Source: Verrucomicrobiia bacterium
GTDB lineage: Bacteria > Verrucomicrobiota > Verrucomicrobiia > Verrucomicrobiales > Akkermansiaceae
Assembly (NCBI GenBank): GCA_030431475.1
Contig: JAUIJD010000050.1
Location: 1-36,085, forward strand
Direction of reading: 5' to 3'
Length of the DNA: 36,085 bases
Part shown: in pieces, positions 366 to 29,699 of the stretch
Layout of the letters: every line of letters begins with the position of its first letter
How positions within the stretch are numbered: the stretch's first letter is position 1
Program-made: the position numbers and the translations under genes
The notes under the pieces: model-generated
What the model saw: the letters and a program-made list of their open reading frames with translations, nothing else
Databases searched by the model: none
What the model was told of the DNA's origin: nothing

Positions 366-479
366 GGAGTGGCGCTCTCCGGAGCGCCATGAGCTGGGAC
401 GGCGATCTCCGGTCGCCTTGACGCCGGGAGTCTTGAAAGCCTCCCTCCCGGCTCATGGCCCCTCGAAAGGAGCCACTCC
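366..479 (+). repeat. REP/BIME family 1, copy A
   Basis: This 114-bp palindromic element starts GGAGTGGC and ends GCCACTCC. Four small hairpins lie in order: GGCGCT/AGCGCC, GGCGAT..GTCGCC, a GGGAG..CTCCC stem, and a GGCCCCT..AGGAGCC stem. The flanks GCCATGAGC and GCTCATGGC are complementary, so a larger cruciform is also possible. It lies 8 bp beyond the 3' end of the sulfotransferase gene. Four further copies are at 11681, 15269 (inverted), 20072 and 20880. Confidence 0.85.
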
Positions 480-487
480 TCACGGCT

Positions 488-1189
488 TCACGATCGGTAG
501 CCGAAGACGTCGATGAACCTGGCGAAGCGCTCCCGGATCCTGGCAATGGATGCCGGATCGAGCACCTCGTGGTGATAGCCGGGGCGGCCGGATTGACGTG
601 AGACGTGCCGACCGTGGATTTGGTCCTGCGGATCGAAGCGGTCGAAGCTCTGCAGCTTCTCGGCGCGCTCCCTGACTGCGTCGATGGAGAAGCGCCGCTC
701 GAAGTCCTTCCGGGCAGATGCTTCCGCCCGCTTGCCGAGGAAGCCTTCGATGGGGGTGAAGAGCCGATCGAAATCGCCGTAGAAGTCCTCGTAGCGAAGA
801 ATCAGCGCTCGCGAGTGGTTTCGCAGCCAGATCGCATCCGCCATCCCCTGGCGCGCGAGTTCTTCGATTTTCGAATCCACCGCCTCCGGAGTGGGCGTGA
901 GTTCGGAAACGCCGAGCATCGAGGCGATGATGTCGGAAGGATCGCGGACCGTGGCGATGAATCGAGCCCGGCACAGAGGACTGCGGTGAAGGAAGCTCAG
1001 ATCGTGGCGTTTGGGAACCTCGAGCTCGGGGCAGATCGCGCGGACCGCATTCCAGACCAGCGTGCTGCCGGTTCTTGGCGGGCCGAACTGAATCACCGGG
1101 GACAACAGATGGTCTCGGAGCGTGCGGAGCGGATTGATGGGTGAAGTTTCAAACTTGAAACTCGAAACTTCAAGAGAGGCATTTCGCAA
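488..1189 (-). CDS. PAPS-dependent sulfotransferase family protein
   Basis: The protein resembles sulfotransferases that move sulfate from PAPS to a sugar or lipid hydroxyl. The 5'-phosphosulfate loop FGPPRTGST is near residues 35-43, the 3'-phosphate motif VRDPSDIIAS at 81-90 (Arg82 and Ser90), and a conserved LRYEDF at 131-136. Beside a polysaccharide locus it could sulfate the exported glycan; that is inference. The start is doubtful. The frame opens at a TTG (1189) inside a hairpin repeat, and residues 6-16 are encoded by degenerate heptamers. TTG at 1105 (just before SPVIQFG) or GTG at 1096 would put the PAPS loop near the N-terminus, as is common. At 233 residues or fewer it is compact for the family. 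It is divergent from the membrane-protein genes that follow. Confidence 0.75.
   Translation of the reverse strand: MRNASLEVSSFKFETSPINPLRTLRDHLLSPVIQFGPPRTGSTLVWNAVRAICPELEVPKRHDLSFLHRSPLCRARFIATVRDPSDIIASMLGVSELTPTPEAVDSKIEELARQGMADAIWLRNHSRALILRYEDFYGDFDRLFTPIEGFLGKRAEASARKDFERRFSIDAVRERAEKLQSFDRFDPQDQIHGRHVSRQSGRPGYHHEVLDPASIARIRERFARFIDVFGYRS
1146..1174 (-). repeat. Degenerate heptamer array at the sulfotransferase 5' end
   Basis: Read on the minus strand the units are TTGAAGT, TTCGAGT, TTCAAGT and TTGAAAC. They resemble the GGAACTT heptamers at 22228-22255. If the TTG at 1189 is the start they encode residues 6-16; otherwise they are leader. Confidence 0.5.
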
Positions 1190-1210
1190 GGAGCGGCTCC
1201 TTGCAGGTGC
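1186..1210 (+). repeat. Hairpin repeat unit (GCAAGGAG/CTCCTTGC)
   Basis: An 8-bp stem GCAAGGAG with loop CGG and CTCCTTGC is followed by AGGTGCC. Near-copies are at 8785-8809 (same AGGTGCC tail) and, degenerate, at 9753-9780 over the end of the fucosyltransferase gene. Confidence 0.6.
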
Positions 1211-1273
1211 CCTGAACCCAATCGGGTGAGGCCGAGGAGCGAATCGCCTCGGGCGTTCGTCCGGAAAGAAGTG

Positions 1274-1295
1274 GGCGCCTGGAAAGCGCCTCTCC
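1274..1295 (-). repeat. REP singlet related to family 1
   Basis: On the minus strand a GGAG head is followed by a GGCGC/GCGCC hairpin with loop TTTCCAG. A near-identical singlet lies at 26805-26826. It is upstream of the membrane-protein gene at 1383. Confidence 0.5.
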
Positions 1296-1382
1296 TTGAG
1301 GGGCTTGCCGGGCTGTCATCCGGAAGGGCAGAAATCGCATGTGGTCATGAGGTCATCCCGGGACGTGGGTGGAGAGGCAAAC

Positions 1383-2576
1383 ATGCCATCGGGGAAGGAC
1401 CGCGTGAACCTCGCGGTCCGTTGGCTTCTCGGCGTCTTGCTGGTCGTCGCGGTGATTGACCAACTCATGCGGGCGCCGGGTTGGGGGCACGACAGCTGGC
1501 GCATCAGCGAGTGGTTGATCCACTATGGCGACGGCTTCGTCCGCCGGGGGCTGGCGGGGACGGTGTTCCGCTGGGGGGGTGAGGTTACGGGCATCCCGGC
1601 CAACCTGCTGGCGATCGGTGTCAGCCTGGGGCTTTATCTGCTCCTCGCCGGGTGGCTGTTTCATCGGGGTCGCGAGACGTTTGCGGCAGGCTTGCTGCTC
1701 TCCTGCGTCGTGCTGGGCTTTCCGGCCTATCAGGATGCAATCGTACGCAAGGATTGCCTCGGTCTGTTGCTCTTCGTCGGGTGCCTCGGCTGGATGGACC
1801 GCTGCGAGCCGCCGGCCGTCCGCTGGGTGGGAGTCAACCTGCTGGCCTGCACGGCGCTCCTGATTCACGAGACGTTTGCCTTCTTTGCCTTGCCCTCCCT
1901 CGTCCTGTTCGGGGTGCCGGACTCGATGGAGTGGAGGCGGCTCGCGACGCGAACCCTGGCGCTGGGACCCGCCTGGGTTGTTTTTGCCCTCACGGCCGTT
2001 TTCCACGGCTCGCCGCATACGGCGCATGCCATCCATGAGTCGTGGCTACCCTTGTGGAGGGAGATCGAAGGTCCGGCGGCCGACCTTTCGGAACCGGCCG
2101 CCGCGATTGCGGCGCTGGGCTGGGAACCGCAGGAGGGGATGGCACTGGTCAAGGGCATCTGGGGTGCCGGCCCCTACCAACCGCTGGCTTGGGCGATGGT
2201 GTTCGGCGTGAGCCTGCTGCTGGTGCTGGCCTTCACCCGGTCGGAGCGGCGCGGACGGTTGTTCGGGATCATGGCGGTTCAATGGGTCGGCATCGCGCCG
2301 CTCTTCGTACTCGGCATTGACTACGGCCGCTGGCTGTTCCTCTGGGTCGTGAGTGCGATGATCCTCCACCTCCACGGTCGTCGGCTGCCCGTCGCGGTGG
2401 AGTCGCGGATCGCCTCCTGGGTGCGGGTTCCTTTCGTCGAGCGCAGCATGAACCACCTTGGGCGGCATGAGTGGGTGTTCCTGTTCTTCGGGGTGCCGGT
2501 GCTGTGGAGCCTGCGAAACTTCCTGACCGCCGGCCCGATTCCCCACCACGGCTGGTCCTGGTTCGGGCCCTTTTGA
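1383..2576 (+). CDS. Polytopic membrane protein with GFVRRGL motif, unassigned
   Basis: This 397-residue protein has many hydrophobic segments (about 12-30, 72-92, 99-118, 123-137, 150-175, and several to the C-terminus). I do not recognise a characterised family. Conserved-looking motifs are YGDGFVRRGL (48-57) after the first membrane segment, VRKD (121-124) and IHETF (161-165). I have an impression of similar motifs in uncharacterised membrane proteins of polysaccharide clusters. The start is ATG 1383, because GGAGAGG lies 5 bases upstream; the frame stays open further upstream to 1296. The next gene begins 3 bp after the stop, so the two are probably translationally coupled. A role in glycan assembly (polymerase- or GT-C-like) is inferred from context only. 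Confidence 0.7.
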   Translation: MPSGKDRVNLAVRWLLGVLLVVAVIDQLMRAPGWGHDSWRISEWLIHYGDGFVRRGLAGTVFRWGGEVTGIPANLLAIGVSLGLYLLLAGWLFHRGRETFAAGLLLSCVVLGFPAYQDAIVRKDCLGLLLFVGCLGWMDRCEPPAVRWVGVNLLACTALLIHETFAFFALPSLVLFGVPDSMEWRRLATRTLALGPAWVVFALTAVFHGSPHTAHAIHESWLPLWREIEGPAADLSEPAAAIAALGWEPQEGMALVKGIWGAGPYQPLAWAMVFGVSLLLVLAFTRSERRGRLFGIMAVQWVGIAPLFVLGIDYGRWLFLWVVSAMILHLHGRRLPVAVESRIASWVRVPFVERSMNHLGRHEWVFLFFGVPVLWSLRNFLTAGPIPHHGWSWFGPF

Positions 2577-2579
2577 TCC

Positions 2580-3809
2580 ATGGAAACGAACGGCTCGATG
2601 AGGTTTCATGGCCCGTGGGTGGGGGGGCTCGTCCTCGCGCTATGGATTGCGGGTCCGTCCTTCGGCTTCCTGCAGGAACATGTCGGTACCTGGTCGGTGC
2701 CGTTCTATGCGCTCGTCGTGTGGGTGGCTCTCGCGGTCGGCGGCCGATGGGCGCGCCGCGCGGAGCCATGGCTCGATCGTCACTTCTTGTGGATGGCGCT
2801 GGTCTGCCTGGCCGGACTGCTCGGGGCGCACCTGCTGCTCCATCCCTTCGAGGACGGCCGCGGCCCGCTGCTCAGCAGCGATCGCGACGAGGCGCTCGAG
2901 GTGGCGGTGGGACGATGGCTGGACGGGGACTATCCCTACTACGCGAAAAGCGAGGTGGCCGGACCCTTGTCCGTGCTGCCCGGTGGAGTGCTGCTGGCGC
3001 TGCCCTTCGTGATGATAGGGAAGGTCGGCCTGATCAACGTCGCCTGGCTGGTGGCGTTTCTATTTGTCATGCGCCGCGAGTTTGGCTCGGCGGGCCGGGC
3101 CATCGGGTTGCTGGTGCTGATGCTGGGGGGCTCCCCGGCCGCGTTGTATGAATTCGTGTCCGGGGGCGACCTGATCGCCAACGGGATCTACGTGGCGGTC
3201 GGGGTGGGGCTCTGCCTCCGATGCTGGTCGGCCGAAGCGTTGCGACCCGGCCCGGCGCTGGCAGCCGCGGCCTTCCTCGGGGTGGCGGTTGCCTCGCGCG
3301 CGAACTTCCCCTTGGTGTGCCCGCTGGTGCTGGCGTGGTTGTGGCGTCGGGTGGGATGGCGCCGGGCGCTGTCGTGGGCGGGCGTGACCGCCGGTGTGTC
3401 GCTCGGCTTGATCCTGGGATTCTATTTCTGGGATTCACAGGCCTTCACCCCCTTCATGTCCCGGAGCAAGTTGATGATTGGCGGGGCGCCCGAGTGGACG
3501 GGGCCGGTGGTGCTGGCCGCGACCGGGGTGGCGGTGGTGGGGTTCGCCGTTTCCTTTTTCGTTCGCCGGAGTGTCCCGGATTCCGCGGCCTGCTTCCGCG
3601 CCTGTGCCTGGATCACGCTGGTTCCGATTCTTGGCATGATCCTCGTGGCCTCGGTCCTGCACGGGCGACTGGACTTCGCCATCCTCCACGATCGTTTTGG
3701 CCTCATGTGGGTGCCTTTTGCGCTGCTGGGCTGGGGTGGCCTGGGTGTCGATGCCTGCACCAAGGGGTTTCATCCGGGTGCTCCGAGTCCGCGCGCGATT
3801 GTGGCTTGA
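2580..3809 (+). CDS. Polytopic membrane protein, possibly GT-C type glycosyltransferase
   Basis: This 409-residue protein has about ten hydrophobic segments. After two N-terminal segments it carries an acidic stretch SSDRDEALE (99-107) and then WLDGDYPYY (113-121). This resembles the first-loop acidic motif and Gly-Asp-Tyr-Pro-Tyr element of GT-C or DUF2029-type polyprenyl-phosphate-sugar transferases. That suggests a periplasm-facing transferase using a lipid-linked sugar, but similarity is weak and it could be a polymerase or an unrelated transporter. The ATG at 2580 follows the previous stop by 3 bp; ATG 2598 is an alternative. After it, GC content drops toward the acetyltransferase genes. 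Confidence 0.65.
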   Translation: METNGSMRFHGPWVGGLVLALWIAGPSFGFLQEHVGTWSVPFYALVVWVALAVGGRWARRAEPWLDRHFLWMALVCLAGLLGAHLLLHPFEDGRGPLLSSDRDEALEVAVGRWLDGDYPYYAKSEVAGPLSVLPGGVLLALPFVMIGKVGLINVAWLVAFLFVMRREFGSAGRAIGLLVLMLGGSPAALYEFVSGGDLIANGIYVAVGVGLCLRCWSAEALRPGPALAAAAFLGVAVASRANFPLVCPLVLAWLWRRVGWRRALSWAGVTAGVSLGLILGFYFWDSQAFTPFMSRSKLMIGGAPEWTGPVVLAATGVAVVGFAVSFFVRRSVPDSAACFRACAWITLVPILGMILVASVLHGRLDFAILHDRFGLMWVPFALLGWGGLGVDACTKGFHPGAPSPRAIVA

Positions 3810-10876: not shown

Positions 10877-11680
10877 ATGGACTTTACCATTGTTACCCCG
10901 AACCTGAACTACGGACGCTTCCTCGGCGATTGCCTGGAGAGCGTCGCGTCGCAGGAGGGCGTCGAGGTCGAGCATCTCGTCATGGACGGGGGATCGACCG
11001 ATGACAGCGCCGAGGTGGTGGCCGGGTTTCCGCATGCGACGTGGATCCGGGGATCGGACCGGGGCATGTCGGATGCCATCAACCGGGGATTCGAGCGGGC
11101 CCGGGGCGAATGGGTGATGTGGTTGAACGCCGACGACCGGCTGAAGCCCGGCGTGCTCGAGGAGCTCAAGCGACGGCTGGACGCCTCGTCCGAGGATGTC
11201 GTTTACGGCGACTTCGATTTCATCGAGGCGGACGGACGTTTCCGGCGGTCGGTCCGCTTGCCGGGGTGGTCGCGCTTCGTGCACATCCACCACCACTGCT
11301 ACGTCGGTTCGACGGCGGCGTTCTACCGTCGGGCGACGGTGATCGACGCGGGCTACCGGCTGCGGGAGGACTTCCGCTACGTGATGGACGGCGAGTTCTA
11401 CGCCCGACTCGACCGGGAGGGTCTGCGCTTTCGGCACCTTCGTCTTCCGATTGCCGACTTCCGCCTTCACGACACGAATGCCTCGATGCGCCACCTCGGC
11501 AAATCCCGAAGCATGGAGAAGGTGCTCGAGGCCGAGCGCCAGCACGTCGAGTCGCGGGCGATCCGCCGGGTCTACGGGATCACGCTCTTCGAGGACCCCT
11601 ACCTCAACGGCCTCGTCGACGGCATTCTCTGGATCGTCGCGAAGGGCTGGAAGGCGGTGTTGAGAGCGGTAGGCGGGTAG
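10877..11680 (+). CDS. Family 2 glycosyltransferase
   Basis: This 267-residue GT-A enzyme begins MDFTIVTPNLNYGRFL with the conserved nucleotide-binding strand. It has VMDGGSTDDS (35-44) and the metal-binding NADD (84-87) in the context SDRGMSDAINRGF..GEWVMWLNADD, typical of WcaA/GT2 sugar transferases. DGEFYARL further on supplies the catalytic-base region. It should add one sugar to a lipid-linked oligosaccharide on the cytoplasmic side. The stop codon TAG is directly followed by REP copy B. Confidence 0.9.
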   Translation: MDFTIVTPNLNYGRFLGDCLESVASQEGVEVEHLVMDGGSTDDSAEVVAGFPHATWIRGSDRGMSDAINRGFERARGEWVMWLNADDRLKPGVLEELKRRLDASSEDVVYGDFDFIEADGRFRRSVRLPGWSRFVHIHHHCYVGSTAAFYRRATVIDAGYRLREDFRYVMDGEFYARLDREGLRFRHLRLPIADFRLHDTNASMRHLGKSRSMEKVLEAERQHVESRAIRRVYGITLFEDPYLNGLVDGILWIVAKGWKAVLRAVGG

Positions 11681-11795
11681 GGAGTGGCGCGCTCCCGGGC
11701 GCCATGAGCCGGGTGGGTGATCTCCGGTCGCCCGACTCGCGGGGAGGCACGAAAGCCTCCCTCCCAGCGCATGGCTCCTTGAAAGAAGCCACTCC
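11681..11795 (+). repeat. REP/BIME family 1, copy B
   Basis: Begins GGAGTGGC immediately after the stop of the upstream GT2 gene and ends GCCACTCC 4 bp before the ATG of the next. It has the same orientation as copy A but is the most diverged of the plus-oriented copies: the first hairpin is GGCGC/GCGCC around GCTCCCGG, the second begins GGTGATCTCCGG, and the last has GAAAGAAGCC. It fills the intergenic gap and leaves no room for a separate ribosome binding site. Confidence 0.8.
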
Positions 11796-12699: not shown

Positions 12700-13805
12700 A
12701 GCTTGCACCGCCGGCGGTGCTTCCACTTCGTGAACACGGCCAGCGCGAGGAGGATGCCGATGGCATCGGTGGCAAGGTCCAGGAGGTCGGAGCCCTCGAA
12801 GCCGTAGCCGAAGCCCCATTGGGCGAGTTCGACCCCGCAGGCGAGGCAGGCGGCGAGCAGGAGCGCTCGTCGAGGCGAGTCCGCTCCCCAGCAAAAGCCC
12901 AGCATGGGAACAAAGAACAGGAGGCCGTGAAGCAGGGGACGCAAGGGGCGAAGCCGGAGCTTCCAGCGGAGGAGCAGATTCGGGGCTTCGGTGATTCCCG
13001 GGTGGCAGTCGGTGGGGATGAAGGCCTCGGCGGGGATCTCGATCGCGGCTTGCGACGGCCGGGCCATCACGAACTCGTTCACGAGCGGTGAGCGCGTCTC
13101 CCAGGGGCCGGGCACGATGAGTGCGTGCGCGCAGATCAACCAGAGGGCGCCGGCCAGCCACGGGCCGGGACGCCGCAGCGAGCCCGCGGCGGAGGCGGCC
13201 CAGAGAAGCCATCCCGCGGCGGCGCCGATCAGTCCGGCGCGGGCCATGGGCCGGGCGTGGACGGGATAGGCCTCGAAACGGACCAAACGGCAGCGCCCCG
13301 AGAGCCCCAGGTTCTCGAGGTGGAGGCGGGCGGATGCGTGGGGTGGGATGTCGGGGAAAACCGTGGATGAGCGGCGGGCAACATGGTCGTCCCACACGGA
13401 GGCGAGAAAGACCCGCTGCACCACGTCGCCATCGCGGATCCACTCGAGATGGAGGCGCCCCGTCTGCCATTCCGCCGGTCCGCGGACGAGGGATTCGGCT
13501 TCCAGGTGCAGGTTCACGTGCAGGCCGCCGGCGGCGCCGATGCCCGGCAGTCCGACCCAGCAGGCGGAGGATTCGCCATGCTGCCAAGGACTGCCTTCCG
13601 GGAGAACGATCGCATGATCGCCTTCGGCGATCCGCCAGACGCGGTTCCATGAAAAGACCGTGGCGGCCACAAGCAGCAGCGCGGTCACCGCGTGGATCAC
13701 CAACCGGAGCACCCGTCGAAAAGAGCACCCCAAGGCGGGGCTGCCGATGGAAAAGTTGGCATTCCTCCGGCAGCTGATGCGCCCAACCTCAAGCAATTCG
13801 GGCAT
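12690..13805 (-). CDS. VanZ-like membrane protein with large extracytoplasmic domain
   Basis: This 371-residue protein has an anchor at about 33-51, a beta-rich presumably extracytoplasmic stretch (about 60-170, with HLEWIRDGDVVQRVFLASVW), membrane segments from about 180, and a C-terminal VanZ-like helical unit. The last carries CGVELAQWGFGYGFEGSDLLDLATDAIG (323-350; key residues Glu326, Gln329 and the Asp-rich turn), which matches the E..Q..R/G..D..D..N/D..G VanZ pattern. AGGA lies about 5 bases before the ATG. VanZ-like proteins occur in exosortase-type polysaccharide clusters; function unknown. The architecture is longer than a plain VanZ protein. Confidence 0.72.
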   Translation of the reverse strand: MPELLEVGRISCRRNANFSIGSPALGCSFRRVLRLVIHAVTALLLVAATVFSWNRVWRIAEGDHAIVLPEGSPWQHGESSACWVGLPGIGAAGGLHVNLHLEAESLVRGPAEWQTGRLHLEWIRDGDVVQRVFLASVWDDHVARRSSTVFPDIPPHASARLHLENLGLSGRCRLVRFEAYPVHARPMARAGLIGAAAGWLLWAASAAGSLRRPGPWLAGALWLICAHALIVPGPWETRSPLVNEFVMARPSQAAIEIPAEAFIPTDCHPGITEAPNLLLRWKLRLRPLRPLLHGLLFFVPMLGFCWGADSPRRALLLAACLACGVELAQWGFGYGFEGSDLLDLATDAIGILLALAVFTKWKHRRRCKLQP

Positions 13806-13864
13806 TGCTTCCTGATGCGGGCTTCCCTATCCCCTTGCGGCCCGGCACCACCGGCGTTCCATCC

Positions 13865-15268
13865 ATGCCTGTCGGAAGACGAGAAGCCTTTTCCATTCAA
13901 CTCCTCCAATTGGTGGACGCCGGATTGGTGTGGCTGGGCTTCTACCTGGCGGATCTGCTCCGGGATCCCCTCCGCGATGTTCTGGGTGAGGAACCGATGG
14001 GGGAAAGCGGGCTGATGCAGATGGCGTGGATCCTCTACGTCGCGGTCCCCTTCACGCCGCTCATTCTCGAGTTCTTCCGCTTTTACCAACGCCTGCGGAC
14101 CAAGACCTTCGGGCGATCGGTGTCCCAGCTGCTCCGGTCCCTGGTCGTCATGGCGCTGGCTCTGGGGATGCTGGTGGTGTTCGCCCGGCTCCCGGAAGGA
14201 AGCCGCCTGGTGCTGGGGGTGGGGGCCGGCTTGGTGTTTTTCTTCATCCTCGCCCGCGACCGGGCCCTCACCCTGCACCTGCGGCGGCAGGGGGTGCGGG
14301 AGGATCTCAAGGAGCGGGTGCTGATCGCGGCCTCGCGCGAGGAGCGGGACGAGTTCCTGGCGGAACTGGATCCGGAGGTTCTGGAAGGCTTCAACATCGT
14401 CGGTCGCTTCGACCTGGGAGAGAGCGAGGTGAGCGACCTCTACGACTTGCTCAAGGAGAAGTCGGTCGAGCGGGTGATCATCGCCGCGGGCGACACGGTG
14501 TTCGACAAGGTCGCCGAATGCGTCGAGGCCTGCGAACTGCAGGGCATCGAGGCCTGGGTAGCGGCATCCTTCATGCGCACGCAGGTGGCACGGCCGACCT
14601 TCGATGTGATCGGCGACAAGCCGATGCTGGTCCTGCGCTCGACCCCCGAGCTGTCCTGGGAGCTCGCCTCGAAGGCGGTGTTCGACCGGGTCGGCGCCTT
14701 CCTCATCATCCTGCTCACCTCGCCGCTGTGGGTCTTCGCCTGGGTGGGCATCAAGATCGCGAGCCCGGGCCCGGCCTTCTACTTCCAGAAGCGGGCCGGC
14801 AAGTACGGCAAGCCCTTCCGGATGTGGAAATTCCGGACGATGGTTCCGGATGCCGACAAGCTGCTCGCGAAGATCAAAGAGGAGCACGGCAACCAGATGG
14901 ACGGGCCGGTCTTCAAGCTCGAGAACGACCCCCGGATCTTCAAGTTCGGGGCGATCCTGCGCAAGCTGAGCATCGATGAGCTGCCGCAGCTTCTCAACGT
15001 GCTGATGGGTGACATGAGTTTGGTCGGCCCGCGACCGCTCCCGCTCTACGAAGTCGAGGCCTTCCAGAAGTCGGAGCACCGTCGGCGCCTGAGCGTGAAG
15101 CCGGGGATCACCTGCGAGTGGCAGTGCGGGGGGCGCAACACCATCACCAGCTTCGAGCAGTGGGTCGAGATGGACCTCCGCTACATCGACAACTGGTCGC
15201 TGTGGCTCGACATCAAGTTGCTGCTCAAAACCGTCCCCGCCGTGATCTTCGGACGCGGGGCGAAGTGA
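13865..15268 (+). CDS. Polyprenyl-phosphate sugar-1-phosphate transferase (WcaJ/EpsE-like)
   Basis: This 467-residue protein has four N-terminal membrane segments (about 10-130), a central nucleotide-binding-like domain (ERVLIAASREERDEF; VERVIIAAGD), and the catalytic bacterial sugar transferase domain (about 275-467). The last contains a membrane helix, KFRTMVPDADK, KLENDPRIFKFG, LRKLSIDELPQLLNVLMGDM and SLVGPRPLP. These enzymes start a lipid-linked repeat unit by moving sugar-1-phosphate onto undecaprenyl phosphate. ATG 13865 is preferred to TTG 13805. It is divergent from the VanZ-like gene, and its stop is directly followed by REP copy C. Confidence 0.93.
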   Translation: MPVGRREAFSIQLLQLVDAGLVWLGFYLADLLRDPLRDVLGEEPMGESGLMQMAWILYVAVPFTPLILEFFRFYQRLRTKTFGRSVSQLLRSLVVMALALGMLVVFARLPEGSRLVLGVGAGLVFFFILARDRALTLHLRRQGVREDLKERVLIAASREERDEFLAELDPEVLEGFNIVGRFDLGESEVSDLYDLLKEKSVERVIIAAGDTVFDKVAECVEACELQGIEAWVAASFMRTQVARPTFDVIGDKPMLVLRSTPELSWELASKAVFDRVGAFLIILLTSPLWVFAWVGIKIASPGPAFYFQKRAGKYGKPFRMWKFRTMVPDADKLLAKIKEEHGNQMDGPVFKLENDPRIFKFGAILRKLSIDELPQLLNVLMGDMSLVGPRPLPLYEVEAFQKSEHRRRLSVKPGITCEWQCGGRNTITSFEQWVEMDLRYIDNWSLWLDIKLLLKTVPAVIFGRGAK

Positions 15269-15387
15269 GGAGTGGCTCCTTTCGAGGAGCCATGGGCTGG
15301 GAGGGAGGCTTTCAAGCCTCCTGAGTGGCGCCGGATGACCTGGAGGTCGCTCCCCCTGGCTCATGGCGCTCGGGAGAGCGCCACTCC
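15269..15387 (-). repeat. REP/BIME family 1, copy C (inverted)
   Basis: This copy runs opposite to the others: GGAGTGGCTCCTTTCGAGG comes first and GGCGCTCGGGAGAGCGCC with ACTCC last. GGGAGGCTTTCAAGCCTCC is the third hairpin; the second has diverged. It starts at the base after the TGA of the sugar transferase gene. At 119 bp it is slightly longer than the others. Confidence 0.8.
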
Positions 15388-19145: not shown

Positions 19146-20072
19146 ATGAGAATCATCAGTGGAACCGCCCACCGCACGCTGGCCGAGCGCATCGCCGCCG
19201 AGCTGGAGATCGACCTCGCCGACGTCCGCGTCACCGCCTTTCCCGACGGCGAGACCTTCGTCAAAATCAACGAGAACATCCGCGGCGAGGACGTGTTCAT
19301 CGTCCAGCCGACCTGTCCGCCGACGAACCACAACATCATGGAGCTGCTGATCATGGTCGACGCCGCCCGCCGCGCGTCGGCCGAGCGCATCACCGCCGTG
19401 ATCCCGTTCTTCGGCTACGCCCGCCAGGACCGCAAGGACCAGCCGCGGGTGCCCATCACCGCCAAGCTGGTGGCCAACCTGCTCACGTCCGCCGGCGTGG
19501 ACCGGGTCCTGACCATGGACCTCCACGCGCCGCAGATCCAGGGCTTCTTCGACATTCCGGTCGACCACCTCTACGCCAAGCCGGCCCTCATCGGCTACAT
19601 CCGCCGGCGGGTCGAGGACACCGAGTCCCTGACCGTGGTGTCGCCGGACGTCGGCGGCGTGAAGCTCGCCCGGGCCTACGCCGACGCGATCGGCTCCGAC
19701 CTCGCGATCGTGGCCAAGCACCGCGTGAGCGCGACCAAGGTCGAGGCGATGAACGTCATCGGGGAGGTCGAGGGCCGCGACGTGATGCTGGTCGACGACA
19801 TGACCGAGACCGCCGGCACGCTCTGCGCCGCCGCCGAAATCCTGTCGAAACACGGCGCCAAGCGGATTTTCGCCGGAGTCTCCCACGCGGTGCTCGGGGA
19901 CATGGGGCGCGAGCGGATCCGAAATTCGGCCATCGAGGAGGTCATCACCACCGACTCGGTGCCCCAGGCCAGCGGCGAGAAGGTCCACGTCTGCAGCATT
20001 GCCAACCTCATGGCCGAGGCCATCCGCCGCATCGCCGGCGGCCAGTCGGTGACCTCGCTGTTCGATGTGTAG
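19146..20072 (+). CDS. prs: Ribose-phosphate pyrophosphokinase
   Basis: This 308-residue enzyme makes PRPP from ribose-5-phosphate and ATP for purine, pyrimidine, histidine and NAD synthesis in the cytoplasm. It has the full class I signature: FPDGETFVKINENIRGED, the flexible-loop FFGYARQDRKDQPR, VDRVLTMDLHAPQIQGFF, VVSPDVGGVKLAR and the PRPP-binding VMLVDDMTETAGTL. Its usual verrucomicrobial neighbour is rplY; here the two are separated by a RAYT and two REP elements. The TAG stop shares its G with the first base of REP copy D. Confidence 0.97.
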   Translation: MRIISGTAHRTLAERIAAELEIDLADVRVTAFPDGETFVKINENIRGEDVFIVQPTCPPTNHNIMELLIMVDAARRASAERITAVIPFFGYARQDRKDQPRVPITAKLVANLLTSAGVDRVLTMDLHAPQIQGFFDIPVDHLYAKPALIGYIRRRVEDTESLTVVSPDVGGVKLARAYADAIGSDLAIVAKHRVSATKVEAMNVIGEVEGRDVMLVDDMTETAGTLCAAAEILSKHGAKRIFAGVSHAVLGDMGRERIRNSAIEEVITTDSVPQASGEKVHVCSIANLMAEAIRRIAGGQSVTSLFDV

Positions 20073-20185
20073 GAGTGGCGCTCTCCGGAGCGCCATGGGC
20101 CGGGGTGGCGAGCTCCGGTCGCCTTGGACGCGGGAGGCTTGAAACCCTCCCGCCCGGCTCATGGCTCCTCGAGAGGAGCCACTCC
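20072..20185 (+). repeat. REP/BIME family 1, copy D, flanking the RAYT gene
   Basis: Begins with the G of the prs stop codon (TAGGAGTGGC) and ends GCCACTCC. Hairpins are GGCGCT/AGCGCC, GGCGAGCTCCGGTCGCC, GGGAGG..CCTCCC and GGCTCCT/AGGAGCC. The RAYT stop codon and last eight or so codons (minus strand) lie inside its right end. It has the same orientation as copy E on the other side of the RAYT. Confidence 0.88.
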
Positions 20186-20842
20186 TGAGCCAACCTGCTC
20201 GCCCCGAAATCGATCGCCGAGGCGGCTCGTGCCCATCACGCACTGACCGTCGCGAAGACCCGCCTTCCGGGGATTCCTGAGGATGTAGCGGACGCAACGC
20301 CCGAAGTGCGGCCAGTCGCGGATCATGCGGTCGAAGTAGCTGCGCTGCCACAGCGTTCCGGTCCGTCCCGTCCGGGCGTTGATCTGTCTTGCGGTGTAGC
20401 CTTTCCACGACTGGAGGATTTTCGACGGTGCGTGTTCTCCGAGCGTCTCGAAGACGACGTGGACATGGTTCGGCATGATGACCCAGGCGTGAAGAAGGTA
20501 GCGCTGCTCATCGAAGAAGCGCAGCGTTTCCTCGACGATGCCGGCGTTCTCGGGATCGTTCAGCGGGCACTCGCCGGAGCCAGCATCGAGCCAGCGCTCG
20601 ACGGTTCCGAAGAATCGGCGCTGGTAGTCGAGGTCGGCTTCCGCGGGCCAGGGCCGGGGCCCCTGCGCCTCCTTGAAGCGGTGTCGCGCTTCTACCAACG
20701 CCCGGAGCTTTTTGCCGGGAATGGAATCGACCGTGCGGAAAGTGACGAAGTAGGTGGAGGCACGCTGCGACCAATGGGGGAGCCGGTTGCGGCTGCCCTC
20801 GACCGGTCGATGGGGGTCGTAGAACTTCGGGGGCTTGATCAA
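20159..20842 (-). CDS. REP-associated tyrosine transposase (RAYT, Y1_Tnp/IS200-like)
   Basis: This protein of about 227 residues is a single-domain HUH nuclease of the Y1 transposase superfamily. It has LPHWSQRASTYFVTFRT (21-37), HAWVIMPNHVHVV (118-130) with the metal-binding His126 and His128, WQRSYFDRMIRD (165-176) with catalytic Tyr169, and CVRYILRNPRKAGL (183-196) typical of RAYTs. RAYTs cut single-stranded REP hairpins next to a GTAG or GGAG head and are usually domesticated, one copy per genome. Here GGAG-headed REPs lie on both sides, the normal REPtron layout. No ATG starts the frame; TTG 20842 is the earliest candidate after an in-frame TGA, with no Shine-Dalgarno. The C-terminus (GSGVAPLEEP) is read from REP copy D. 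Confidence 0.93.
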   Translation of the reverse strand: MIKPPKFYDPHRPVEGSRNRLPHWSQRASTYFVTFRTVDSIPGKKLRALVEARHRFKEAQGPRPWPAEADLDYQRRFFGTVERWLDAGSGECPLNDPENAGIVEETLRFFDEQRYLLHAWVIMPNHVHVVFETLGEHAPSKILQSWKGYTARQINARTGRTGTLWQRSYFDRMIRDWPHFGRCVRYILRNPRKAGLRDGQCVMGTSRLGDRFRGEQVGSGVAPLEEP

Positions 20843-20879
20843 ACAGTGTTCAAAAGAACTACTTCATGACAAGGGCAAA

Positions 20880-20993
20880 GGAGTGGCGCTCTCCGGAGCG
20901 CCATGCGCCGGGGTGGCGAGCTCCGGTCGCCGCCGTCTTGGTAGGCTTGGAAGCCTCCCGTCCGGCTCATGGCTCCTTGAAAGGAGCCACTCC
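20880..20993 (+). repeat. REP/BIME family 1, copy E, flanking the RAYT gene
   Basis: GGAGTGGC begins 37 bp upstream of the RAYT start and GCCACTCC ends 11 bp before the rplY -35. Its first hairpin, loop CTCCGG and GGCGAGCTCCGGTCGCC match copy D almost exactly; the third hairpin differs (GTAGGCTTGGAAGCCTCCC). Both A and E are preceded by AAA. Confidence 0.88.
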
Positions 20994-21004
20994 GGAACAA
21001 TTTT

Positions 21005-21033
21005 TTGACAATTCCCTCCGGCGTCGCTATGAC
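21005..21033 (+). promoter_or_regulatory. rplY promoter
   Basis: A consensus -35 TTGACA (21005-21010), exact 17-bp spacer and -10 TATGAC (21028-21033) lie between REP copy E and rplY, leaving a leader of about 40 bases. The leader includes a GCCGTCGGTGACGGCGGC hairpin (21043-21060) and no strong Shine-Dalgarno. Confidence 0.7.
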
Positions 21034-21081: not shown

Positions 21082-21747
21082 ATGGCCAAGAAGCACACCC
21101 TCAAAGCCGAGCTCCGCGCCCGCACCGGTTCCGGTCTCCTCAAGCAGATGCGCCGCGAAGGCTGGCTGCCCTCGGTGATCTACGGCAAGGGCGCCGAAAA
21201 CAAGAATCTCAAGGTCGACGCCAAGACCTTCCGCGAGCTTCTCGCCGACAGCGAATCCGAGAACATCCTGATCAACCTCGACGTCGAGGGCGAAGGCTCG
21301 GATCTTGCCTTCCTGCAGGACATCCAGCACGACCCGCTCACCGGCGAGGCGCTGCACGCCGATTTCCGCGCGGTGAACGAGAAGACCGAGATCAACGCCT
21401 CGGTGCCGGTCCACCTGCTGGGCGACCCGGTCGGCGTGACTCAAGGCGGTGGCATTCTCGAGCAGGGTCTCCACACCCTCGACGTGACCTGCGCCGCGAC
21501 CAACCTTCCCGAGTATCTCGAGTTCGACGTCTCCGGACTCGACGAGGGGGACTCCCTCCACATCGGCGATGTCGAGTTCCCGAAGGGCGTGAAGCCGAAC
21601 TACGAAGACGAGGTGGTCATCGCCCACATCGGCCGTCCCGGCGCCGCGATCTCCGAAGATGCCGCTGCCGGTGAAGGCGAGGAAGGCGCTCCGGCCGCTG
21701 CCGAGGCTGCTCCGGCGGAGGAAGAGGCCGCTCCGGCCGAAGCCTGA
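21082..21747 (+). CDS. rplY: 50S ribosomal protein L25/general stress protein Ctc
   Basis: This 221-residue protein is the long (CTC/TL5) form of L25, which binds 5S rRNA. The N-terminal L25 domain (1-95) begins HTLKAELRARTGSG and includes SVIYGKG; the C-terminal beta domain (96-190) has VPVHLLGDPVGVTQGGG. A low-complexity Ala/Glu tail (about 194-221) follows, as in many relatives. It has its own promoter and a strong terminator, which makes it monocistronic here. Confidence 0.96.
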   Translation: MAKKHTLKAELRARTGSGLLKQMRREGWLPSVIYGKGAENKNLKVDAKTFRELLADSESENILINLDVEGEGSDLAFLQDIQHDPLTGEALHADFRAVNEKTEINASVPVHLLGDPVGVTQGGGILEQGLHTLDVTCAATNLPEYLEFDVSGLDEGDSLHIGDVEFPKGVKPNYEDEVVIAHIGRPGAAISEDAAAGEGEEGAPAAAEAAPAEEEAAPAEA

Positions 21748-21845: not shown

Positions 21846-21861
21846 CGAGGTATCCGATGGC

Positions 21862-21957
21862 GCGATTGCGATTGCGATTGCGATTGCGATTGCGATTGCG
21901 ATTGCGATTGCGAGGGCGAGGGCGAGGGCGAGGGCGAGGGCGAGGGCGAGGGCGAGG
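21862..21957 (+). repeat. Two-species hexamer array: eight GCGATT then eight GCGAGG
   Basis: Eight perfect GCGATT units (21862-21909) pass in register into eight perfect GCGAGG units (21910-21957). The array is 96 bp, uninterrupted and non-coding; apparent Ala-Ile or Arg-Gly peptides from it are low-complexity artefacts. Perfect identity implies recent slippage. Confidence 0.95.
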
Positions 21958-21960
21958 GAT

Positions 21961-22139
21961 GGCCCGAAGGGTCATGACAACGCAGCCCAGGGTCATCGAC
22001 CCTGGGTGAGGATCGGTGGAGAAATGCGGCCTGAAGGGTCGCGAGACGGGCTCTTGCGACCCTCCGGGCCGCCGGTATTTGTGGACTCGAATTCCCAGAG
22101 CCGCTGGCCCTGGGCTGCGTTCTGGCGACCCTTCGGGCC
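21961..22139. repeat. 179-bp inverted repeat with internal hairpins (third palindromic family)
   Basis: The 32-base arms 21961-21992 and 22108-22139 match at 27 positions: GGCCCGAAGGGTC, five differing bases, then AACGCAGCCCAGGG and its complement. Inside are CCAGGGTC-ATC-GACCCTGG and a long hairpin (22028-22070) whose arms repeat the GGCCYGAAGGGTC word. That word therefore occurs four times, alternating in direction, as in BIMEs. Its head differs from GGAG. Confidence 0.75.
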
Positions 22140-29627: not shown

Positions 29628-29699
29628 GTGGAGCGCCGATGATGAAATCGGCTCGTTCGCACCGATCGAAAGAGGCCGATTTCATCATCGGCGCTCCAC
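29628..29699. repeat. Family 2 REP inverted pair with 25-bp perfect arms
   Basis: Arms 29628-29652 and 29675-29699 are perfectly complementary over 25 bp and enclose a 22-base loop. Each begins GTGGAGC and contains its own small hairpin, GCCGAT..ATCGGC. It lies 4 bp after the stop of the unassigned gene and may also act as a terminator, though no T-tract follows. A CCGCTT..AAGCGG hairpin (29713-29732) follows before the transporter. Confidence 0.85.

Follow-up and report, generated by a model that had tools for sequence, protein, structure and literature searches.

What is a transposase gene doing between prs and rplY, and why does it lie between two copies of a repeat that folds into hairpins? 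The question is raised by contig JAUIJD010000050.1 of the Verrucomicrobiia bacterium assembly GCA_030431475.1 (Akkermansiaceae), of which positions 1 to 36,085 of the forward strand are the stretch analysed here, referred to as the window. The gene encodes a REP-associated tyrosine transposase (RAYT), and the locus is very probably a REPtron, that is, a Y1/HUH RAYT flanked by two copies of a cognate REPIN-like unit which it would move in trans as folded single-stranded DNA. A preliminary description, made from the letters of the window, had proposed a RAYT between two copies of its probable cognate REP in this layout, and the proposal has come through tests of family, fold, flanks, copy number and co-occurrence. 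The larger interest lies outside the window, where related RAYTs are found in frame within central genes.

The transposase gene and the unit at its flanks

The HVH at residues 126-128, with His126 and His128, and Tyr169 are where the preliminary description had placed them and correspond to the HUH motif and the catalytic tyrosine of the Y1 family; Pfam Y1_Tnp matches the protein with E=5e-10. The score against the NCBIfam model NF047646 REP_Tyr_transpos is 83.5 bits (cut-off 80), and that against the IS200 model, 36.6 bits, is below its cut-off of 55. An IS200/IS605 element would be recognised by several near-identical copies of the whole element per genome; here the gene is present as a single copy, and the next RAYT of the same genome is 49% identical. 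An AlphaFold model built from 48 sequences has a mean confidence (pLDDT) of 91, with values below 50 only at residues 218-227, the tail that the REP encodes. The top match of the model in the PDB by Foldseek is 4er8, the E. coli RAYT in complex with a REP hairpin (E 3.8e-6, probability 1.00). In a comparison of the ratio of nonsynonymous to synonymous substitution rates (dN/dS), the value for the gene and its homologue in genome E54 is 0.16, and RAYT comparisons range over 0.16-0.32.

The two GGAG-headed palindromes of 114 bp that had been described around the gene are both there, and the RAYT's TGA stop and last eight codons (GVAPLEEP) do fall within the downstream one. They had been said to share an orientation; they are direct repeats (88% over 118 bp, E=4e-41), and that orientation is nominal only since the unit is nearly palindromic. 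The three further copies in the window, one of them inverted, were likewise found again. Copies in the window are 114-119 bp long, the other four being 80-90% identical to the downstream copy, and full units span 104-120 bp. From one end to the other a unit consists of GGAG, a TGGC..GCCA hairpin, the stem strand TGAGCCGGG, two inner hairpins, the strand CCCGGCTCA, a second TGGC..GCCA hairpin and CTCC. The preliminary description did not recognise this unit; its count of four hairpins stands, and the unit is now seen to be REPIN-like, with inverted REPs at both ends joined by a central stem that encloses the two inner hairpins. Positions are collected in the table.

Features of the RAYT locus and its surroundings in the window
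Feature	Position	Strand	Basis or remark
RAYT, 227 aa	20159-20842	-	NCBIfam, Pfam, AlphaFold, Foldseek; likely TTG start
REPIN-like unit downstream of RAYT	20072-20185	+	repeat finding, genome matches, fold; contains RAYT stop codon
REPIN-like unit upstream of RAYT	20880-20993	+	89% identical to copy 20072-20185
Left REP of copy 20072	20072-20095	+	head GGAG 20072-20075, hairpin TGGCGCTC/GAGCGCCA 20076-20095
Central stem and inner part of copy 20072	20096-20161	+	20096-20104 pairs with 20154-20161
Two inner hairpins of copy 20072	20107-20123, 20130-20153	+	sequence and single folds, no covariation test
Right REP, inverted, of copy 20072	20162-20185	+	hairpin TGGCTCCT/AGGAGCCA 20162-20181, CTCC 20182-20185
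Unit copy	366-479	+	90% identical to copy 20072-20185
Unit copy	11681-11795	+	begins directly past stop codon of ORF 10877-11680
Unit copy, inverted	15269-15387	-	begins directly past stop codon of ORF 13805-15268
prs, ribose-phosphate pyrophosphokinase, left neighbour	19146-20072	+	Pfam Pribosyltran_N 4e-55
Promoter-like TTGACA-17-TATGAC of rplY	21005-21033	+	box kept before rplY in 15/15 relatives
rplY, ribosomal protein bL25/TL5, right neighbour	21082-21747	+	Pfam Ribosomal_TL5_C, Ribosomal_L25p

Folded as single strands in stretches of 125 nt that include short flanks, the downstream and upstream copies give z = -5.2 and -4.1 respectively, and none of 200 shuffles equals either. Covariation points the same way for the outer helices. 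Across 17 full copies and 29 pairs, 95.7% of cells are paired versus 43-50% for slid partners, a measure that favours the structure since it was drawn from the same 17 sequences. Compensatory cells number 39 against a mean of 15.9 in shuffled alignments (0 of 500 as high); further pair types, at 17 versus 19.1 in shuffles, show no excess. Pairing is 99.3% in helix 2 (left REP), 97.1% in helix 4 (right REP) and 89.5% in helix 3 (central stem). The test was confined to these outer 29 pairs because types of inner hairpin swap places, which makes the MAFFT alignment unfit for counting pairs there. The head GGAG is invariant in the 17 aligned copies, and the covarying outer helices are those of two inverted REPs that fold as one unit, as in a REPIN.

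The genome-wide count of copies that the preliminary description had proposed shows that the unit is not confined to the window: BLAST gave 43 match rows, which reduce to 32 places when 8 opposite-strand duplicates are removed and neighbours merged. Copies are concentrated in the window, five against 0.24 expected (Poisson P 6e-6), and when the two that flank the RAYT are set aside the remaining three still give P 0.0015. When copies are ranked by similarity to the downstream flanking one, those in the window hold ranks 1 (the other flank), 2, 4 and 5 of 31. A covariance model built from 17 full copies finds at least 83 matches in the same genome, both strands counted and the best 150 of 9196 candidates scored. 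Rfam has no match within the window, and the exact 26-mer of the left REP has none among viral contigs.

Comparison of the junction with relatives confirms the earlier statement that the element splits prs from rplY. The first G of the downstream unit is the final base of the prs stop codon TAG, and the element ends just ahead of the rplY promoter box. In 4 of 15 relatives (G002, G014, G010, G015) prs and rplY are neighbours 112-251 bp apart, without a RAYT between them; the other 11 have no prs in the 1.5 kb upstream of rplY that was compared. The rplY promoter had been called fresh. That idea is rejected: the box AACAAnnTTTTGACA precedes rplY in all 15 relatives, which makes it an ancestral promoter, not one brought by the element, and the insertion took place upstream of it.

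Probable partnership of unit and RAYT

If the unit belongs to this RAYT, the two should occur together. Among 17 relatives in the genus, all four genomes whose best RAYT match reaches 200 bits have the unit, as do 2 of the 13 others (Fisher P 0.006); presence here means 10 or more matches to the covariance model with both strands counted and the best 150 candidates scored per genome. With the genome of the window included, the model finds the unit in 8 of 18 genus genomes; plain BLAST of 57 genomes, with the best 15 candidates of each, finds it in 4, again including its own. The preliminary description had named many units in genomes lacking the RAYT as a result that would speak against it. 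The three genomes without a RAYT match (G005, G012, G016) have no unit match; two genomes lacking a RAYT above 200 bits, G002 and G011, do have units. REPs are thus on both flanks of the gene, dispersed in its genome, and follow the RAYT across relatives with the exception of G002, G011, G010 and G014.

The two nearest homologues are elsewhere. The one in E54, 67% identical, adjoins a gene for a HAD-type phosphatase, and that in Co_bin.289, 56% identical, is between genes for an ABC-transporter ATPase and a dihydrouridine-synthase-like protein (all three named by eye from the translations). Beside both, the outer foot GGAGTGGC of the window unit is kept and the central stem changes, to ACGGGGCGT in E54 and to GGCACGGAC in Co_bin.289. 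In E54 the RAYT is inside one split unit, the halves of which form 51-bp inverted repeats on either side, and this is the layout expected of an autonomous parent.

The genome of the window has 19 Y1_Tnp matches, and 10 of these match the RAYT at E<=1e-10, which could suggest that the units are deletion derivatives mobilised by a different Y1 transposase. This is very improbable. Each of the 10 RAYT-like genes has a matching hairpin repeat on both of its flanks, the weakest being that at C55 (28 nt, E 7e-6), and the stems differ from gene to gene (GGAGCGCCGATTATGAAATCGGC beside C34 and GGGGAGAAGGGATTTGAAATCCCTT beside C87, for example); the retention of the outer foot beside the nearest homologues, despite the change of central stem, also argues for the resident RAYT. 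With their own flanking stems these genes suggest that the 4.7-Mb genome holds about ten RAYT-repeat pairs. The C34 repeat family has 116 BLAST match rows, both strands counted, and short matches to it (22-27 nt) at 29629-29698 make a second REP family in the window. Seven IS200-type TnpA genes, recognised by eye (L039-L043, L052, L055; L052 with an internal stop), are distinct from the RAYTs. Other repeats in the window are tandem GCGATT and GCGAGG runs at about 21861-21958, between rplY and a gene named by eye as peptidyl-tRNA hydrolase-like, and at 21961-22139 a 46-bp inverted repeat pair, 83% complementary with 87 nt between the arms, possibly of another repeat family.

Where the units are placed bears on a different explanation, that they are RNA-level elements, terminators or stabilisers of mRNA 3′ ends, under host selection, with a RAYT between two of them by chance. 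Their hairpins are strong, and 10 of 18 full units start between -10 and +1 relative to the stop codon that ends an open frame of 150 or more amino acids; random places in the same loci give a mean of 0.53 and a maximum of 4, and none of 1000 draws reaches 10 (the frames were open frames not checked as genes, and the one beside the upstream copy is antisense to the RAYT). Described REPs, too, are mostly behind genes, and those with a GTAG head often provide stop codons (PMC3733652). A role as intrinsic terminator was rejected as the principal explanation, as TTTT is within 12 nt of either end in just one of the 18, where it belongs to the rplY promoter box. Unit presence also tracks RAYT presence across the genus, and host terminators would not explain that 10 RAYT-like genes of one genome have matching flank repeats with different stems. 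An RNA-level role as the explanation of the units is improbable. An ATG stands behind the outer hairpin at both ends in 17 of the 18 full units (not L018), and ATGA at one or both ends in 16 (not L012 or L018); a single unit might thus supply the stop of one gene together with the start codon of the gene that follows.

The mechanism that would account for a REPtron at this locus begins with single-stranded DNA, most likely the lagging-strand template, on which the two ends of a folded unit would form inverted hairpins headed by GGAG. Binding of the RAYT to these end hairpins would be followed by a cut next to them, made with Tyr169, and by transfer of the unit in trans; in this way copies would have reached sites throughout the genome, with a preference for the position immediately after a stop codon. 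As the probable source copy, the gene in the window would have inserted between prs and rplY, ahead of the rplY promoter already in place, and the short units may be deletion derivatives of an autonomous parent organised as in E54, with the gene within one split unit. As the apparent parent and the short units are present in the same genus, the route from transposon to REPIN is testable.

Several observations weigh against the REPtron reading. The match to 4er8 has a TM-score of 0.40 by query and 0.53 by target with an rmsd of 14, and the predicted likeness is at family level and not close. The head of the unit is GGAG and not the GT(A/G)G that defines described REPs; with GGAG in 17 of 17 copies the element is filed as a variant rather than as a canonical GTAG REPtron. 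G002, one contig of 5.68 Mb, has 26 unit matches with a best RAYT of 171 bits; G011, 72% complete, has 15 with a best RAYT of 113 bits; G010 has 3 with 94 bits; and G014 lacks a unit match despite its RAYT of 178 bits. Both strands enter into these model counts, which are limited by the 150 candidates scored in each genome. Most of the other copies are 10-30% divergent from the flanking one, so that recent movement is not evident. The prs-rplY comparison is one between species, and a polymorphic empty site within a species was not seen.

A further alternative is a RAYT that has been fully domesticated, in an element that is immobile and with a protein that keeps the units for a host role, for example in replication or repair. 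The presence of one copy, the distance of 49% identity to the next RAYT of the genome, dN/dS of 0.16-0.32, the divergence of units among themselves and the fixation of relatives inside host genes are all in keeping with it. However, the most similar unit copies cluster locally, and the different loci in E54 and Co_bin.289 imply that the RAYT has moved or been exchanged since these lineages split. Full domestication is considered rather unlikely, though less so than the alternatives above, and a REPtron remains the preferred explanation.

RAYTs in frame inside host enzymes

A good part of the RAYT matches in the 57 genomes fall within long open frames. Thirty-two such frames were read and 25 scanned by Pfam (those at L156, L168, L169, L179, L181, L182 and L183 were left out), and in 20 of the 25 host domains are on either side of the RAYT. 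The hosts are IspG (4), CarB (3), leucyl-tRNA synthetase (LeuRS; 3), a DUF5107/TPR protein (3), MetH (2), an Eco57I-type methylase (2), a glycosyltransferase (2) and alanyl-tRNA synthetase (AlaRS; 1). In the other five, L173 and L176 (NUDIX) have a host domain on one side only, and L167, L174 and L175 are not clear-cut. At L155 and L180 Pfam reported no Y1_Tnp, and the RAYT there rests on protein search. Antisense or accidental open frames were considered for these loci and set against the flanking host domains in 20 of 25 frames; assembly error was rejected, as G002 is a single contig and the ispG insertion recurs in four genomes.

The genome of the window has two embedded RAYTs, in ispG (C23) and in a TPR protein (C29). 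The former (L053, C23:32000-37000, frame 951-3599 on the plus strand) is in frame in the sole ispG, past the first GcpE stretch, with serine in place of the catalytic tyrosine and 54-bp inverted repeats at its bounds; the same insertion site is occupied in L154, L155 and L157. IspG occurs once per genome, as two pieces of one frame, in all 10 genomes searched (chosen from the 57), 4 of them with a RAYT. RAYTs with an intact tyrosine are in frame in LeuRS, after the editing domain, at L163, L164 and L165 (G027, G056 and G014). The interrupted LeuRS is the only strong editing-domain match in each of these genomes, the weaker ones (E 1e-8 to 4e-4) looking like other synthetases, and in G053, G056 and G026 the interrupted CarB is the only CarB found. 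All genomes behind these single-copy findings are drafts except G002. LeuRS is essential, and IspG is so where no mevalonate pathway exists. Further in-frame residents are in CarB (L159, L160, L161), MetH (L171, L172), AlaRS (L180), the Eco57I-type methylase (L166, L170), the glycosyltransferase (L177, L178) and the DUF5107/TPR protein (L054, L158, L162), all with tyrosine changed to serine except those of the glycosyltransferases, which have tyrosine, and of AlaRS, which has phenylalanine.

The HUH motif is kept in all 53 RAYTs compared. In contrast the catalytic tyrosine has become serine in 18 of 26 embedded rows (plus one phenylalanine) versus 1 of 27 other rows (Fisher P 4e-7, kinship uncorrected). 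The 27 comprise 8 free-standing genes of the window's own genome, including L045, which carries the serine, and 19 GTDB rows (context checked for L057 and L058); two of the 27 have arginine or proline at the position. Among embedded RAYTs the tyrosine is kept by the leuS and glycosyltransferase residents and by one of the four in ispG.

A RAYT phylogeny, another proposal of the preliminary description, was realised as a quick tree of these 53 that is without subclass 2.4 references, has SH-aLRT support only and leaves 19 of 50 inner branches open. Six of the nine host groups with at least two rows form single groups (support: ispG 97, methylase 98, adenosine deaminase 98, leuS 88, glycosyltransferase 88, TPR 61); the carB, metH and nudix residents do not. 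Such clustering by host gene fits inheritance in place, though repeated entry of related RAYTs at one site may be the alternative. For the ispG insertion, comparison of the RAYT core with E54 gives a dN/dS of 0.28 and with G002, where dS approaches saturation, one of 0.15; with G023 it was not computable. The repeat-derived linkers have values of 0.46-0.69, and the host has 0.09-0.11 in its N-terminal and 0.15-0.28 in its C-terminal part. The IspG fusion was also modelled from four sequences; with a mean pLDDT of 45 the model was too poor for use and nothing was concluded from it.

We give about even credence to the reading that the RAYT family of the window gene has a second lifestyle in Verrucomicrobiales, as an in-frame passenger domain in central single-copy enzymes. 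The RAYT, with its own repeats on either side and translated as linkers, would be inherited in place across genera and families and would persist by being unremovable from an essential reading frame. The gene in the window would then represent the free-standing, Tyr-bearing state of origin from which many residents would have been converted from HUH-Tyr to HUH-Ser, and the Ser forms would be retired from nicking and kept as protein domains, perhaps ones that bind single-stranded DNA. RAYTs are long-lived as single copies without spreading, and an essential reading frame could hold them. The open-access literature searched, which does not include subscription papers, yielded no account of an entire RAYT in frame within a host enzyme. 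TnpA proteins longer than expected were left out of an earlier survey, which took them for fusions or errors of annotation (PMC6006769); this may explain why in-frame RAYTs went unnoticed.

Relation to known REP systems

The E. coli RAYT and others cleave single-stranded REP, with a dependence on GTAG that varies (PMC8266576). The REPtrons or TnpA-REP systems of E. coli, Pseudomonas and Stenotrophomonas share with the locus in the window the HUH motif and tyrosine, a fold for which 4ER8 is the best match, flanking repeats with further copies across the genome and stems that vary from one RAYT to another; they differ from it in lacking its GGAG head, its two-REP, four-hairpin unit on each side and its verrucomicrobial host (PMC2817692, PMC8266576). 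REPINs are likewise two inverted REPs with conserved ends and a less conserved foldable spacer, whereas the spacer here has a central stem and two further hairpins in units of 104-120 bp, and the 32 merged places compare with 430 REP doublets in SBW25 (PMC3116915).

Judged by motifs alone, the RAYT resembles TnpA-REP subclass 2.4, or RAYT group 4, with its ‘double foot’ REPs (PMC6006769). NHVH and WQ are present, YILRNP is one position off YIxNNP, and in both cases a foot and its reverse complement stand at the repeat ends, though as GGAG/CTCC rather than GT[AG]G/C[TC]AC. REPs inside tnpA-REP genes occur in that subclass, as do REPs in frame within proteins. The 51-54 bp inverted repeats that bound the RAYT of E54 and the ispG insertion recall TIRtrons (PMC3733652), except that in E54 they are halves of a REPIN-like unit. 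Palindromic repeats internal to proteins, namely GTAG REPs of O. terrae and RPEs of Rickettsia, similarly yield peptide from a repeat with the frame unbroken (PMC3733652); in contrast the loci outside the window have a whole RAYT in frame and not the repeat alone. What is new at the locus itself is a GGAG-headed, four-hairpin REPIN-like unit together with its RAYT in a verrucomicrobial genome, a variant of known REPtrons.

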